The position numbers and the translations under genes were made by a program. A stretch of DNA of 35,451 nt from Sulfurospirillaceae bacterium (GTDB taxonomy: Bacteria > Campylobacterota > Campylobacteria > Campylobacterales > Sulfurospirillaceae). The stretch is taken from NCBI GenBank assembly GCA_028705785.1, contig JAQWCT010000003.1:1-35451 (forward strand), read 5' to 3'. Below the pieces are notes generated by a model. That model did no database searches. It saw nothing but the letters and a program-made list of their open reading frames with translations, and was not told the origin of the DNA. Below are positions 6,671 to 12,516 of this stretch, piece by piece (the first letter of the stretch is position 1; each line of letters opens with the position of its first letter).

Positions 6671-7147
6671 ATGAATATGCTCATTTTGACGCATAACCAT
6701 TGGCTAAATAACTACATCCTCAATAAAGAATTTAGCCTTCTTGCAGGCATCTCTTCCAATGCTTATCGTTACTGGAACGGTGTCGAAGCTGCCAAATTTG
6801 ATGATGCGAGAGTCGTTTTTTTGCGCAAAGAGAGTGTTCTACCCAAATACAAAGCAATCGCCCAACAATGCACCAACCTTTTTGGCATGGTACAATCTCA
6901 AGCTTTTTGCAAATACACTGGACTTGCACCCTCTCATCTCATCGAAAAAAATCACTCTTGTATCTATGAAGCCCTAGAGATTATCGATATCTGCGACATC
7001 AAATTTGTCAATCTTAAAAAATTTTATGATGATTTAAAACTAGATTATAAGTACCACATCTACATCGAAAAATGCAAGTATTTTGGCCCTTCACCACTAG
7101 AAAAAAAGATAAACTTAAGTAGTGGCATCTGCGTGGGGTACTATTAA
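6671..7147 (+). CDS. hypothetical protein
   Basis: 158-aa ORF starting immediately after the transporter stop codon. No family recognised. Confidence 0.6.
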   Translation: MNMLILTHNHWLNNYILNKEFSLLAGISSNAYRYWNGVEAAKFDDARVVFLRKESVLPKYKAIAQQCTNLFGMVQSQAFCKYTGLAPSHLIEKNHSCIYEALEIIDICDIKFVNLKKFYDDLKLDYKYHIYIEKCKYFGPSPLEKKINLSSGICVGYY

Positions 7148-7194
7148 TTGCCACATAAGCACAAAATGGCTATACTTTCACCCTTATCTAAGAT

Positions 7195-7282
7195 GGGCAG
7201 ATGGGAGAGTGGTTTAATCCAGTCGCCTGGAACGCGGCCGTGGGGCAACTCACCGGGGGTTCGAATCCCCCTCTGCCCGCCA
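7195..7282 (+). tRNA. tRNA-Ser (anticodon GGA)
   Basis: Acceptor GGGCAGA/TCTGCCC; anticodon stem GTCGC/GCGGC with loop CTGGAAC; long variable arm GTGGG-GCAA-CTCAC; T arm GGGGGTTCGAATCCCCC; encoded CCA. Confidence 0.96.
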
Positions 7283-7283
7283 T
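7266..7283. repeat. left attachment-site direct repeat in the tRNA-Ser 3' end
   Basis: TCCCCCTCTGCCCGCCAT, identical to 11856-11873. Confidence 0.93.
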
Positions 7284-8549
7284 ACCCCTTTCAAACCCCC
7301 TAAAATAGGCACTTCTGATATTTCAAAACCTCCAAAATCTGTCTGCTATGACGACTTTTCAAAAATACCACAAAAAACACTAGAAAACTATGCTAGTTTA
7401 AGACTATATAGAGTTAATAATATATACTATTACAGAAGAAACATTTTAAAAAAATGTTATAGAATATCACTTAAAACAACCGATATTAAAAAGGCTATAT
7501 ATTTAAAAAAGTGTTTTGATATCTTAAAAAAAGAGGAGTTTATTAGAATGTTTGAATTAACAAAAGGCGAAATGAAAATTTTGTTTGAATATGACAACAT
7601 AGAAGAATTAAGAGAAACCTTAGATGCTTTAGAAAAAAAACTTTTTCAAGTTGAAAATATTAATCCTTCACGATATTGTAGTTTTCAAGAATTAGAAACA
7701 CATTTTATAGCACATAAACGAAAGTTAGAAAAAGTTGGAGATAGTAGTTTTAGAATGTATTTAGCGACATTTAACAAGCTAAAAGACTTTTTTCAAGATA
7801 AAAGTATTTGCGAATTAAGATATCAAGATGTTGAGGATTTTCAACAATATCTAAAAAGTAAAAAAATAGGAAATACGACTATAAACAATCATTTAACATA
7901 TTTTAAAATGTTTATGGATTTAGCTGTTAAAAAAGAAATAATAGAAAAAAATATAGTTATTGGGTTTGATACATTAAAACAAGTTAAGCCAAAAAAAGAA
8001 AATTTCATCGATGAAGAAATTGGAGTTTTAATAAACTATAAATGGGATGATTATGTTTATAATCAAATTTTTAAAATTTTAGCCTTAACTGGAATGCGAA
8101 TTCATGAGGTTTTATCAATCTCACAAAATGATATAAAAACAGATGAAAAGGGAATAGTTTATATAGACTTACCAAAATCAAAAACTGAAAATGGTTATAG
8201 AAAAATACCTCTTCACAAAGATTTTCCAACTGTTATTTTTCCTCTTTTTATCAAACCTGAAAAACAAAATTTTATAGATTTCACTGATTCAATTGGTAGA
8301 AGAATAAATAGAAGAATTCATCAAGTGATTAAAGACAAAGGAAAAACTTGCCACACATTTAGGGGGACATTTATTCAAAAATTATCTAATTTATTTCCAG
8401 AAAAAATTAATATAGTTCAAGAAATAGTGGGGCATTCAAAAGGGTCTAAATCTTTAACTTTAGACACATACAGCAAAGAATTTTATTTAGAAACAAAAAA
8501 AGAAATGATTGATAAAGTAAGCTATAAAGATTTAATTTTTAAAAGATAA
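7284..8549 (+). CDS. tyrosine recombinase/integrase, 3' portion of a split gene (intC). ATG at 7548 is the first possible start in the integrated state
   Basis: Frame open from 7218 through 8549 with no ATG/GTG/TTG before 7548. Upstream codons encode an arm-binding-like domain (RLYRVNNIYYYRRNILKKCYRISLKTTDIKKAIYLKKCFDILKK). Catalytic signatures: ALTGMRIHEVLSI, K in PKSKTENGYRKIPL, CHTFRGTF, VGHSKGSKSLTLDTYSK. Confidence 0.88.
   Translation, partial: TPFKPPKIGTSDISKPPKSVCYDDFSKIPQKTLENYASLRLYRVNNIYYYRRNILKKCYRISLKTTDIKKAIYLKKCFDILKKEEFIRMFELTKGEMKILFEYDNIEELRETLDALEKKLFQVENINPSRYCSFQELETHFIAHKRKLEKVGDSSFRMYLATFNKLKDFFQDKSICELRYQDVEDFQQYLKSKKIGNTTINNHLTYFKMFMDLAVKKEIIEKNIVIGFDTLKQVKPKKENFIDEEIGVLINYKWDDYVYNQIFKILALTGMRIHEVLSISQNDIKTDEKGIVYIDLPKSKTENGYRKIPLHKDFPTVIFPLFIKPEKQNFIDFTDSIGRRINRRIHQVIKDKGKTCHTFRGTFIQKLSNLFPEKINIVQEIVGHSKGSKSLTLDTYSKEFYLETKKEMIDKVSYKDLIFKR
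7343..7359. repeat. 17-bp direct repeat, copy 1 (candidate integrase arm site)
   Basis: CTGCTATGACGACTTTT, identical to 11713-11729. Confidence 0.75.
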
Positions 8550-8722
8550 TAATTCAAGTTTTATCTTTAATTTTAAATCGCGAATATTAGCGGCAGAACA
8601 TGTTGTTTTATTGATTCTGAATTTAGATTCAATATTGTTCATGGTGAGTCTATAGCCAAGGAATTCAACATATTATTTATTACTATCAAATGTGAATAAC
8701 AGAAAACATTTTTAGCAGAAAA
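8536..8722. repeat. Large inverted repeat, left arm (IR-L)
   Basis: 8536-8574 is the exact reverse complement of 10891-10929 (39/39). 8677-8722 is the reverse complement of 10745-10790 with one mismatch (45/46). The middle is diverged. Confidence 0.88.
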
Positions 8723-8764
8723 CACCGTTTTAATACCTCCGATTTTTTTGTGTTTACACAAAAA

Positions 8765-8839
8765 AACACCATAGGAAACAAACAAAGTTTTAAAAGAACG
8801 CTAGTGATTTTAAAACTTCGTTTGTTCCTATTAGGTGTT
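8765..8839 (+). other. Long imperfect stem-loop upstream of the relaxase gene (candidate oriT or regulatory hairpin)
   Basis: aacaccataggaaacaaacaaagttttaaaa / ttttaaaacttcgtttgttcctattaggtgtt around a 12-nt loop gaacgctagtga. Preceded by a second hairpin ttttttgtg-ttta-cacaaaaaa. Confidence 0.65.
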
Positions 8840-8901
8840 ATTGTTATAAACGAAATTTGCTATCTATAATTAAATTACAAAAATTTAATTAGGAGAAAAA
8901 A

Positions 8902-10533
8902 ATGGCAAATTCAACATTCCTTTGTAAAGAAATAAACTTTACAAAAACTGGCAAAGCGGGCAAAAACGGTATAAACAAAAACAGCTATATTCAACTTTTA
9001 AAGAGTATTTTACACTCTTTAAGAATTGAAATGGAAGAAAAAAATATACATATTATTAATTCAAAAACACATGAAAATATAATTTATACGGATGAAAAAA
9101 TATATTTTGATAACAAAGAAATTATTGAATTGATAGAGAAAGAAATTGCTGAAAATATAAAAAAATATGAAAATATAGACGACAAAGAAAACAGATTAAA
9201 AATCTTAAAACAGTTTCAAGATGCTAAATCTGCGATAGCAAAAAAGACAGATATTAAAACATTAGATAAATTATTAGACGATAATTTAGACACTACAGAA
9301 TTATTGAAAAAATTGAATTTGGTAAATGATAAAAGAACAATAAAAACTTTAGAAAACTATATTACATTAAAAAAAGAAAGAGACGAAATTAAAACAGAAA
9401 CGAGGGCTTATCAAAATCAAACTTTAGTAAAAGAAATTATTTTTAAAATTCCAGAAGGACAAAGTTTAAATATAAAAAATGAAGACTGGATTACTCTACA
9501 AAATAATTTTTTAAAAAACTATTTTAAAGAATATAAGCTACATTTTTCAGCAATTCATTGTGATGAAGGAACAGAGAACAAATCACATCTTCATATGTTT
9601 TTAAGTGGTTTTAACCATATTAAAAATGATTTTGATATCAATGAAAAGATATTTAGCGATATGAATAAAAAGTATAGTTTGAATTTAGATTACAACAAAG
9701 TAGAAGACCACAAAATAGCTATGCGAAAGTTTCAAGAAGATTTTTATGATTTCTTTAATAAAGAATTAAAATTATTAAATTACAAAGACAAAATAGAACT
9801 AAAAACATACACAACAGAAGACGAAATCAAAAAAAGATTAAAAATTAAAAAAGAGGACAACTTAACGATTACACAAAAACACACTAAGCTAATTAATCAA
9901 AAAATTAGCGAAACATTGGAAAAAATGGAAGGTGAAAAACCAAAAATTCTAAAAAGTGAAGTTAAAGAAAATTCTACTTTTTTAAATAAAAAAACATATA
10001 AATTAGAACTTGAGACAGAAACAAAAGAAGAAATGAAAAAAGTTGTTGATAGTATTAAAAACTATTCAAAAATATCTAATTTTGTAAAAGATTTAGAAAA
10101 AGAAAAACAAGACGCTAATAATAAATATTATATATTAAAAAGTGATGCTACTAATAAAATAAATTACTTAACAAGCAAAGAAGACGAATTACTATTAAAA
10201 GTTAAAAAACTACAAAATGAATTAAGCGACACATTAAAATATAAAAATGAAATTGTAAAAATAGAAGAAAAAAACAAAATTCTAAAAGATGTATTAGAAA
10301 AAAACACACATATTAAAATTTCTGATACTGATATAGATAGCAATTTAGATAACACGATTACACAAAAAAGAAATATAAAAGATGAAGAAGATAAGAAATT
10401 TATAGCAGAAGAACTAAAAAGAATAAAGGACGAAAGAGAAAAACTAGCTAAACAAGAAGAAACACCACAAAGAGACATTAAAGACGAATTTGAAGAATTT
10501 AAAAGAAATAGAAAAATAGAAAAAAATAAGTGA
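8902..10533 (+). CDS. putative MobV/Pre-like relaxase (plasmid mobilisation-type protein) with coiled-coil C-terminus
   Basis: LHFSAIHCDEGTENKSHLHMFLSGF matches an HxDE...HxH metal-binding motif as in MobV/Pre relaxases. Lys/Glu-rich coiled-coil C-terminal half. RBS AGGAG and TATAAT upstream. Confidence 0.6.
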   Translation: MANSTFLCKEINFTKTGKAGKNGINKNSYIQLLKSILHSLRIEMEEKNIHIINSKTHENIIYTDEKIYFDNKEIIELIEKEIAENIKKYENIDDKENRLKILKQFQDAKSAIAKKTDIKTLDKLLDDNLDTTELLKKLNLVNDKRTIKTLENYITLKKERDEIKTETRAYQNQTLVKEIIFKIPEGQSLNIKNEDWITLQNNFLKNYFKEYKLHFSAIHCDEGTENKSHLHMFLSGFNHIKNDFDINEKIFSDMNKKYSLNLDYNKVEDHKIAMRKFQEDFYDFFNKELKLLNYKDKIELKTYTTEDEIKKRLKIKKEDNLTITQKHTKLINQKISETLEKMEGEKPKILKSEVKENSTFLNKKTYKLELETETKEEMKKVVDSIKNYSKISNFVKDLEKEKQDANNKYYILKSDATNKINYLTSKEDELLLKVKKLQNELSDTLKYKNEIVKIEEKNKILKDVLEKNTHIKISDTDIDSNLDNTITQKRNIKDEEDKKFIAEELKRIKDEREKLAKQEETPQRDIKDEFEEFKRNRKIEKNK

Positions 10534-10627
10534 TAGAGGATGGATGGATAGATTATTAAATTATGAATAATTTAAAATCTATCTTTTTAGGATATGGTAA
10601 GTTAATAAAAACTATCTAAAACTATCA

Positions 10628-10702
10628 AAAAACACTAAAAAACCATAGCAGGTTATATCTGCTAATAGTTTTCTATTGTTTTATCTTTTTTAGTGTGTTT
10701 TT
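10628..10702 (+). other. Nested stem-loop downstream of the relaxase gene
   Basis: Outer stem aaaaacactaaaaaa / ttttttagtgtgttttt; inner stem tagcag-gttatat-ctgcta. Confidence 0.5.
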
Positions 10703-10744
10703 GTGGTTTTAAAGTATGATTTGAATTCTGATGCTATAAATTTC

Positions 10745-10929
10745 TTTTCTGCTAAAAATGTTTTCTGTTATTCACATGTGATAGTAATAAACACTATTGA
10801 ATACTGATGCTACAGCAGACTTACATGATAATAAACATAAATCTAAATCTAAATAAACAACTTCTTTTGCTGCTAAATGGTTTTATTTCCAAAATTAAAG
10901 ATAAAACTTGAATTATTATCTTTTAAAAA
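10745..10929. repeat. Large inverted repeat, right arm (IR-R)
   Basis: Reverse-complement partner of 8536-8722 (see left arm). Confidence 0.88.
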
Positions 10930-10933
10930 TTGA

Positions 10934-11087
10934 TGGAAAACGATACCTTCTGAATTATGCATACTGAATTAGATAACAAGTAATATCAACTATTTAGTAT
11001 TAGCTACTTTCACATGTAGATTAATATGAGTCTTAATATAACTGCGTCTATCGACTTGTTATATTAAGAAGATACTATCGTTTTCCA
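10934..11087. other. Nested inverted repeats in the leader of the 186-aa ORF
   Basis: TGGAAAACGATA (10934-10945) / TATCGTTTTCCA (11076-11087); ATAACAAGT (10973-10981) / ACTTGTTAT (11054-11062); CTTAATATAAC (11032-11042) / GTTATATTAAG (11058-11068). Confidence 0.7.
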
Positions 11088-11138
11088 CTTTTTTATGATC
11101 TATAATTAAAAAATCAAAACTAAAAAGGAAAAACAGAA

Positions 11139-11699
11139 ATGAAAAAAACAGAAGTTTATAGTGTTATAAACAATTATATATTCGATTATTTGACTACTTT
11201 TAGTAGGAAAAACTTATATTTAATAGTAAATAGTGGAAAAGTAGTAATTGAGAGTGAAGGATTTAATTTTTGTAGAAAATTAAAAGAAGAAAATAGATTA
11301 AAAGATTTTAATTCAAAAGATTTAAAAAATATTATTGAAAAAATTTATCTTTATATTATTCAAAATCAAAAAGAACTATTTGAAAAATATGGAAATGGTG
11401 GAAGGTATAAAAACAAAGTTTTAAATTGTAAAACACTAAAACAAAAACAAAAAATCAGCGGTGAAACAACAGCTAAAATCAATAGTCAAAAGAAACAAAA
11501 TTTAGTAGTTAAAACAATAGAAAACTTATTAAAAACACAGCAAAAAATAACTATCAAAGCTATTTGTAGTGTTTCAAAATTAGATAATAAAACTGTTATT
11601 AAATACTATCAAAATTTAAAAAATGAAATAAAATTACATAATTCAAAAATCAAAATTTTCAATAAAGAAATTGATAAGTTTTTAAAAGAACTTTTTTAA
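11139..11699 (+). CDS. hypothetical protein with possible C-terminal helix-turn-helix region (element regulator or replication protein candidate)
   Basis: 186-aa ORF with upstream TATAAT and RBS. VVKTIENLLKTQQKITIKAICSVSKLDNKTVIKYYQNLKNEI resembles a DNA-binding HTH. Confidence 0.55.
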   Translation: MKKTEVYSVINNYIFDYLTTFSRKNLYLIVNSGKVVIESEGFNFCRKLKEENRLKDFNSKDLKNIIEKIYLYIIQNQKELFEKYGNGGRYKNKVLNCKTLKQKQKISGETTAKINSQKKQNLVVKTIENLLKTQQKITIKAICSVSKLDNKTVIKYYQNLKNEIKLHNSKIKIFNKEIDKFLKELF

Positions 11700-11712
11700 T
11701 AGTTGCGTTATA

Positions 11713-11729
11713 CTGCTATGACGACTTTT
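11713..11729. repeat. 17-bp direct repeat, copy 2 (overlaps the putative promoter of the integrase 5' fragment)
   Basis: CTGCTATGACGACTTTT, identical to 7343-7359. Overlaps a -10-like TATACT at 11709-11714. Confidence 0.75.
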
Positions 11730-11750
11730 TAATGGGGAACAGGTGAAAAA

Positions 11751-11897
11751 ATGACGATTTCAATGAACGAAATACAATTTAAAAAGATACTAAACACCGC
11801 CGTAGCCGATGTTTTGAAAGGTTTAGGGTTTAATGAAAAAGGGAAATTGGTAAATTCCCCCTCTGCCCGCCATTACATTTTTAACCCCGTATTTTAG
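11751..11897 (+). CDS. integrase 5' fragment (intN): start codon and first 40 codons of the split integrase, running through the att site into host DNA
   Basis: AGGTG RBS then ATG; MTISMNEIQFKKILNTAVADVLKGLGFNEKGKLVNSPSARHYIFNPVF*. The att repeat is read SPSARH in the same frame as at the left end, where 7281-8549 is open to the integrase stop. Confidence 0.8.
   Translation: MTISMNEIQFKKILNTAVADVLKGLGFNEKGKLVNSPSARHYIFNPVF
11856..11873. repeat. right attachment-site direct repeat
   Basis: TCCCCCTCTGCCCGCCAT, identical to 7266-7283. Confidence 0.93.
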
Positions 11898-12022: not shown

Positions 12023-12283
12023 TTAATAAATATCTCCTCTATTGTCACCATCTAGCATTAATATAACCAATTCATTATCAATAATATCGTAGACAAATCT
12101 ATAATTATTGATTCTTAGCCTATAAAAGGGGGAGTTAGATAATTTTTTAATGTCCAATAATGAATTTGGGAAAGGATTGTTTTTTAAAATTTTGAGTTTA
12201 GAATCTATATTTTCTTTATCTTTTGGGTTTCTTTTTTCAATAAACTTGATAACATTTTTTTTGAAAATAAGTTTATAAGTCAT
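12023..12283 (-). CDS. type II toxin-antitoxin system RelE/ParE family toxin
   Basis: YKLIFKKNVIKFIEKRNPKDKENIDSKLKILKNNPF...KKLSNSPFYRLRINNYRFVYDIIDNELVILMLDGDNRGDIY is a typical RelE-like fold sequence. Confidence 0.88.
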   Translation of the reverse strand: MTYKLIFKKNVIKFIEKRNPKDKENIDSKLKILKNNPFPNSLLDIKKLSNSPFYRLRINNYRFVYDIIDNELVILMLDGDNRGDIY

Positions 12284-12516
12284 TATAGAACATACTCTTC
12301 AAAGTCATCTCTTTTCCCATTTTTAAAATCATTTGATACTGTTTTCAATTCTGACAAAGTCTCATTTGACACATAGTCAAAGTCTTTAGTTGAAAGTTTT
12401 GCTGTATCAATTTCATTAACAATATCAATTTCATTTTTTGAAAAATGGCTGAGTAACCATTGAAATTTATCAAAAGCTGATTCATTAATTTTAAGGGTAA
12501 TTGTTTCCATTGGCAT
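12283..12516 (-). CDS. putative antitoxin of the RelE/ParE-type pair
   Basis: 77-aa ORF whose end overlaps the toxin start (ends ...FEEYVL). Start may be the second Met (12510). Confidence 0.75.
   Translation of the reverse strand: MPMETITLKINESAFDKFQWLLSHFSKNEIDIVNEIDTAKLSTKDFDYVSNETLSELKTVSNDFKNGKRDDFEEYVL

Follow-up and report, generated by a model that had tools for sequence, protein, structure and literature searches.

The integrated element and its tRNA target

The window is a 35,451-nt stretch of DNA from a Sulfurospirillaceae bacterium whose genome is a draft of 281 contigs. It holds an element of 4,590 bp, measured between att cores, that lies in a tRNA-Ser(GGA) gene. The core, TCCCCCTCTGCCCGCCAT, consists of the final 17 bases of the tRNA plus one more and occurs exactly at both ends of the element and nowhere else in the genome. 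With a tRNA 3'-end direct repeat at both ends and the tRNA left whole, the locus satisfies the definition of an integrative element at a tRNA gene. The features are as follows.

7148–7176, + strand: promoter-like site TTGCCA-17-TATACT upstream of the tRNA (consensus match only)
7195–7282, + strand: tRNA-Ser(GGA), the integration target, intact after integration (ARAGORN)
7266–7283, + strand: attL core, 18 bp
7284–7547, + strand: int coding sequence that lacks a start codon when integrated, encoding a linker and a beta-beta-beta-alpha N-terminal domain
7343–7359, + strand: putative P' arm-type Int site CTGCTATGACGACTTTT, inside int
7533–7550, + strand: internal translation start, GAGGAG at 7533–7538 and ATG at 7548 (kept in 13 of 13 subfamily A members; assessed by synonymous shuffles)
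7548–8549, + strand: Int(C), 333 aa, core-binding and catalytic domains (Pfam PF13102 and PF00589; R, HxxR, H and Y columns invariant)
8902–10533, + strand: 543-aa protein, possible MobV-like relaxase (HCDEGTENKSHLH motif, HxDE...HLH, by eye only)
11139–11699, + strand: 186-aa protein, possible DNA-binding protein (weak PHROG 2391 match, E 0.009)
11713–11729, + strand: putative P arm-type Int site, identical to 7343–7359
11741–11745, + strand: Shine-Dalgarno (SD) sequence AGGTG of int(N), read from the sequence
11751–11873, + strand: int(N), 41 codons from ATG 11751, the last ones being the att core
11856–11873, + strand: attR core, 18 bp (the right flank adjoins tRNA 3'-end sequence in another genome)

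No terminator-like site was found in 6900–8700, and it is possible that the promoter-like site upstream of the tRNA also drives int(C) transcription, although only a consensus match speaks for it. A clean empty tRNA-Ser site with the same flanks was not found in the genomes of relatives that were searched. In one of these (G242) the right-flank sequence runs into a tRNA 3'-end fragment; as no tRNA was found close by, we regard this as the end of another element or a rearranged region rather than an empty site.

The 543-aa protein has no family match: searches of Pfam, NCBIfam, PHROGs and PDB returned nothing to back the relaxase reading. The view of the element as a mobilizable element (IME) is only a possibility resting on the relaxase motif seen by eye. 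Inverted repeats at 8534–8722 and 10745–10931 (41 bp at 100% and 53 bp at 94% complementarity) surround this gene and might delimit a sub-element or form a transfer or replication structure. Just outside attR, on the minus strand at 12023–12516, lie a ParE-like toxin gene (PF05016) and a likely upstream antitoxin.

The integrase gene is split at the attachment site

The reading frame of the integrase ORF at 7548–8549 remains open upstream across the att core to a TAA at 7215–7217, with no in-frame ATG, GTG or TTG anywhere within 7218–7547. At the other end of the element the ORF begun by ATG 11751 reaches the second repeat in the integrase frame and, in the chromosome, continues past it to a stop at 11895–11897. 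Joining 11751–11873 to 7284–8549 gives 1,389 nt that encode 462 aa with no internal stops, and att occupies codons 36–41 of this fusion. The split and the continuity of the frame are thus seen directly.

The fused protein met the criteria for a tyrosine recombinase/integrase (PF13102, E 4e-12; PF00589, E 4e-7), and in an alignment of 11 homologues R273, H358, R361, H385 and Y397 were invariant. Downstream of att, a variable linker leads to the motif LYxVxxxYYYRRxIxxKxYRISLRT, which is encoded by the 264 nt upstream of 7548, is kept in every close homologue and lies in a region that weakly resembles DUF6538. A structural model of the N-terminal domain gave three strands and a helix (residues 42–81 of the 422-aa frame that follows att) and places the end of the domain upstream of the internal start. 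From this model, which is of only moderate reliability (pLDDT ~65), and without binding data, we infer a resemblance to the arm-binding domain of lambda-type integrases. Ordinary relatives start directly before the N-terminal domain, and thus int(N) plus the linker constitute an added leader that spans attP.

The split is conserved in Campylobacterota

We searched 300 genomes of the same order with the fused protein and then ran profiles against the family, the phylum and GTDB contigs. Some thirty homologues, close or moderately so, were found, all in Campylobacterota, their sources including Sulfurospirillaceae, Sulfuricurvum, Sulfurimonas and Helicobacteraceae metagenome-assembled genomes. 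In nearly all of them the integrase frame reaches without a stop into the 3' end of a tRNA gene, the targets being tRNA-Ser(GGA, UGA, GCU), -Asn(GUU), -Arg(GCG), -Met(CAU) and -Leu(UAG). A core-domain profile sets these homologues sharply apart: above 150 bits, leaving aside truncated or damaged genes and those without a recognised tRNA, the open int frame always takes in the tRNA 3' end. Less closely related integrases beside tRNA-Ser, from another family of the order (f11), have their own start downstream of the tRNA; the layout therefore belongs to the subfamilies described here and does not follow from the tRNA sequence.

Both att copies could be read in 15 elements, the window included, although not all of these are independent. 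They lie at tRNA-Ser, -Asn and -Arg genes, measure 2.1 to 21 kb and in several cases are within complete chromosomes. In all 15 the far att copy is entered in the integrase frame by an ATG with an SD-like motif, versus 3 of 30 for the other two frames, a difference that chance does not explain. There is a slight bias toward this result, in that G020 and G309 each have two att copies and the copy was chosen by presence of the ORF. Subfamilies A and B use different frames of the same tRNA-Ser(GGA) end, and the far-end ORF matches the frame of each. With att left out, conservation of the N-part was 29.4 in subfamily A versus a shuffled maximum of 17.9 (0 of 500 shuffles) and 52.3 in subfamily B versus 29.7 (0 of 2000), the conserved cores being around M(I/T)xSLSxxxxExL in A and KGFCGYNKxW in B. 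The draft state of the window's assembly cannot account for the layout, which genomes assembled into one or two contigs have too. We consider it very likely that the split gene is real and conserved.

These comparisons bear on the sequence-only reading of the window. Its open frame without a start before 7548, its ATG at 11751 with AGGTG and its 462-aa fusion all held, every coordinate being confirmed. So did its claims that the codons upstream of 7548 are genuine integrase N-terminal sequence (7284–7547 aligns across the family) and that the circular junction is in frame (the frame is kept in every element with both ends). None of the three conditions that it had named as refuting was fulfilled; the close homologues, in particular, have no start of their own near att. 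The same intN/intC division, which it had proposed to look for in related genomes, was found at tRNA-Ser and other tRNAs.

The partitioned layout occurs in at least three subfamilies. A tree of partitioned and ordinary integrases, made by a quick method, has seven changes between the two states as labelled (L055 and L106 being mislabelled), and its starred branches force at least four. The need for several changes makes more than one origin, or several losses, likely. L106 was rejected as a partitioned integrase, as it has its own start. L055 (4805–5971) is a partitioned int(C) that is preceded by att without a tRNA or an int(N) upstream, possibly the outcome of tandem insertion at the same tRNA. 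L039 (G020) has two att copies past the integrase (12980 and 14503 in reverse-complement coordinates), only the nearer of which has an int(N); this may be a tandem or accreted element.

A probable internal start within the integrated gene

All 13 distinct subfamily A genes have an SD-like motif and an ATG, GTG or TTG located 20–23 codons past SL[KRQ]T, just downstream of the N-terminal domain; usually the remaining frame has no other such place. When synonymous codons were shuffled (1000 trials) a mean of 3.2 and a maximum of 9 of the 13 genes retained the combination. The glutamate codons that form the SD are GAG in 7 of 7, 10 of 14 and 8 of 12 sequences versus 27% overall, and the three glutamate columns before the internal start are the top three for GAG in the alignment. 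Moreover, start codons are rarer by a factor of four in the 73 codons that follow the tRNA (12/1460 versus 246/7622), a test that was not corrected for relatedness. In subfamilies B and C an ATG is found at a similar place, without a consistent SD.

The internal-start signature of subfamily A is thus shown, and its presence in 13 of 13 genes implies that the integrated gene is probably not silent but yields a truncated Int. Together with the depletion of start codons it suggests that the integrated gene is geared to yield Int(C) and not the N-terminal domain. In the absence of expression data we lean, without great assurance, toward a functional truncated product in subfamily A. Its role can only be inferred: Int(C) might excise the element, aid full-length Int or block recombination.

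Direct repeats resembling arm-type sites

Direct repeats flank the core on both arms, and their sequence differs by subfamily: the 17-bp CTGCTATGACGACTTTT in the window, ACTATGATAC in other A members, TGTCCAAC in B and TTTACAACTTTTAAG in C. In 12 of 15 elements the longest arm repeat exceeded those of mononucleotide shuffles (p below 0.01). Dinucleotide shuffles, which are stricter and mix imperfectly, gave weaker support, above all for subfamily C, G016, G036, G259 and L054. The repeats themselves are observed; their likeness to arm-type Int sites is inferred from sequence without binding data and the assignment remains putative. As one set lies within the int coding sequence, the gene contains attP in its entirety. 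In G172 (L134), and in L057 near position 2283, a copy of the arm repeat at the far end, AAACTATGATAC, contains the start codon of int(N), and it is possible that Int represses its own expression by way of this copy.

Movement and decay of the integrase module

A second Sulfurospirillaceae species carries an int module with 95.5% DNA identity to that of the window, versus 73–78% for the host flanks, and the remainder of the element differs. This disparity argues that the module moves between species and that the movement was recent. Most integrated copies retain an uninterrupted frame across the stretch that lacks a chromosomal start codon, the decayed copies being G051, G259 and G139. Such intact startless frames would fit recurrent passage through a circle that expresses the whole gene, although this is inferred. 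The window–L048 pair did not show purifying selection over 7284–7547 (dN 0.024, dS 0.039), a comparison made uninformative by having only seven changes. An intact uninterrupted int was not found in the PLSDB plasmids, INPHARED phages, IMG/VR or GTDB genomes searched, and the circle is therefore only deduced; intact homologues in unintegrated plasmids, which the sequence-only reading had suggested seeking, were likewise absent from PLSDB.

A model for a self-splitting integrase and its rivals

In our model the promoter, the SD, the start codon and the codons for a short N-terminal helix would precede the core in the circle, and the linker and the arm-binding-like, core-binding and catalytic domains would follow it in the same frame. 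The circle would make the 462-aa full-length Int, which would integrate the element into tRNA-Ser. Integration would leave the 41-codon int(N) at the element's far end and the remaining int directly behind the tRNA where, with about 88 codons lacking a start, no full-length Int could be made. From the internal SD and start, a truncated Int(C) without the N-terminal domain would be translated, probably through read-through from the tRNA promoter. This product may stabilise the integrated state, or it may excise the element jointly with the full-length Int of a relative.

An attP-split int that gives the full-length protein from the circle and a truncated form from the chromosome is very likely the best explanation of the whole, although part of it is inferred. 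That full-length Int comes from the circle only is also very likely, with the circle and its expression inferred. The sequence-only reading had proposed that integration would separate the promoter and N-terminus from the catalytic part; the split is supported, and the circle and the expression switch remain inferences because no circle or expression data were seen. Its expectation of no Int or a truncated form once integrated is refined, in that the internal start at 7533–7550 should give the 333-aa form and the gene is probably not silent. A bolder reading, which we can neither favor nor discount, is that position sets two products, a full-length Int with its arm-binding domain from the circle and a truncated Int with a dedicated start from the chromosome, and thereby the direction of recombination without a directionality factor, the arm sites lying in the same coding sequence.

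One rival explanation is that the integrase is complete from ATG 7548 (or from a non-standard codon near att), the upstream frame and the ORF at 11751 being coincidence or relics. The good SD at ATG 7548 speaks for this, as do the distant Campylobacterales integrases at tRNA-Ser that start themselves after the tRNA. However, the upstream 264 nt encode a domain kept in every close homologue, and the conserved far-end ORF with its ATG and SD is in frame in 15 of 15 elements, which already contradicts this rival; we consider it very unlikely. A more serious alternative is a one-way suicidal trap, in which the integrated gene is dead, the internal ATG gives no functional product and spread relies on rare escape or on the full-length Int of an incoming relative. 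The decayed copies support it, as does the archaeal precedent, in which truncated Int is poor or inactive and excision needed full-length Int in trans (PMC8371274). The synonymous-site conservation of the internal SD and start in subfamily A argues instead for a product, and the majority of integrated copies are intact. We consider the trap fairly unlikely.

It is also possible, though in our view fairly unlikely, that swapping of promoter and start is the main point, int(N) being a mere leader for expression from the circle. In favor of this view ordinary relatives begin just before the N-terminal domain, which makes int(N) an extra leader, and ICEKp1 and ICEclc swap int promoters at tRNA genes (PMC13023037). 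Against it, int(N) is conserved as a peptide, and integration also ends translation of the N-terminal domain, which promoter swapping alone would not do.

Relation to known systems

The attP-split model most resembles the archaeal SSV-type integrases (SSV1, SSV2, pTN3, pT26-2), which have attP within int, such that integration at a tRNA separates int(N) from int(C), and in which int(C) lies behind the tRNA promoter and often has an early in-frame start (PMC8371274). Archaeal Int(C) recombines poorly, and excision occurred when an inactive full-length Int was supplied in trans, which implied that Int(C) is expressed (PMC8371274). Unlike these proteins, the window integrase does not match PF16795 (Phage_integr_3), its best matches being PF13102 and PF00589; the hosts are bacteria, and the Campylobacterota split gene holds a conserved internal SD and start plus arm repeats. 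Thus, the window integrase works like the archaeal suicidal integrases but, given the absence of PF16795 and the bacterial host, is not a member of their family.

Among bacterial systems, the Myxococcus phages Mx8 and Mx9 are similar in that integration alters the protein, attP lying in int in Mx8 (PMC6070905, PMC4383910). Mx8 differs in having attP at the int 3' end; its C-terminus is swapped, the promoter and start are kept and Int stays active with altered specificity. An att at codons 36–41 of 462 does not fit the Mx8 arrangement. As Mx8 is an earlier case, the idea of attP within int was already known in bacteria, and the sequence-only claim of a layout not known in Campylobacterota is refined to that extent. 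ICEclc and ICEKp1 also have int beside a tRNA, state-dependent expression and a far-end promoter that drives int in the circle (PMC13023037), but their int coding sequence stays whole and the promoter alone is exchanged. In mycobacteriophages of the BPs type attP lies in the repressor gene, and a switch likewise arises when integration alters one of the element's coding sequences; there the altered gene encodes the repressor, not the integrase, and it is the C-terminus that is cut. Within the open-licence literature, to which our search was limited, a family of N-terminally split bacterial integrases appears undescribed.

Self-splitting (suicidal) recombinases were considered exclusively archaeal in a 2021 review (PMC8371274), and their persistence a paradox; Campylobacterota now show the same arrangement. 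Integrases unrelated to the archaeal ones are split likewise, across three subfamilies or more and many different tRNA targets, which implies a convergent origin. Annotation pipelines probably report these integrases as truncated or set their start at the internal ATG, and thereby overlook attP and the N-terminal half. To the question of what the integrated half of such a gene does, the conserved internal start gives a concrete answer, and Campylobacterota provide mesophilic, culturable hosts in which self-splitting integrases could be tested.
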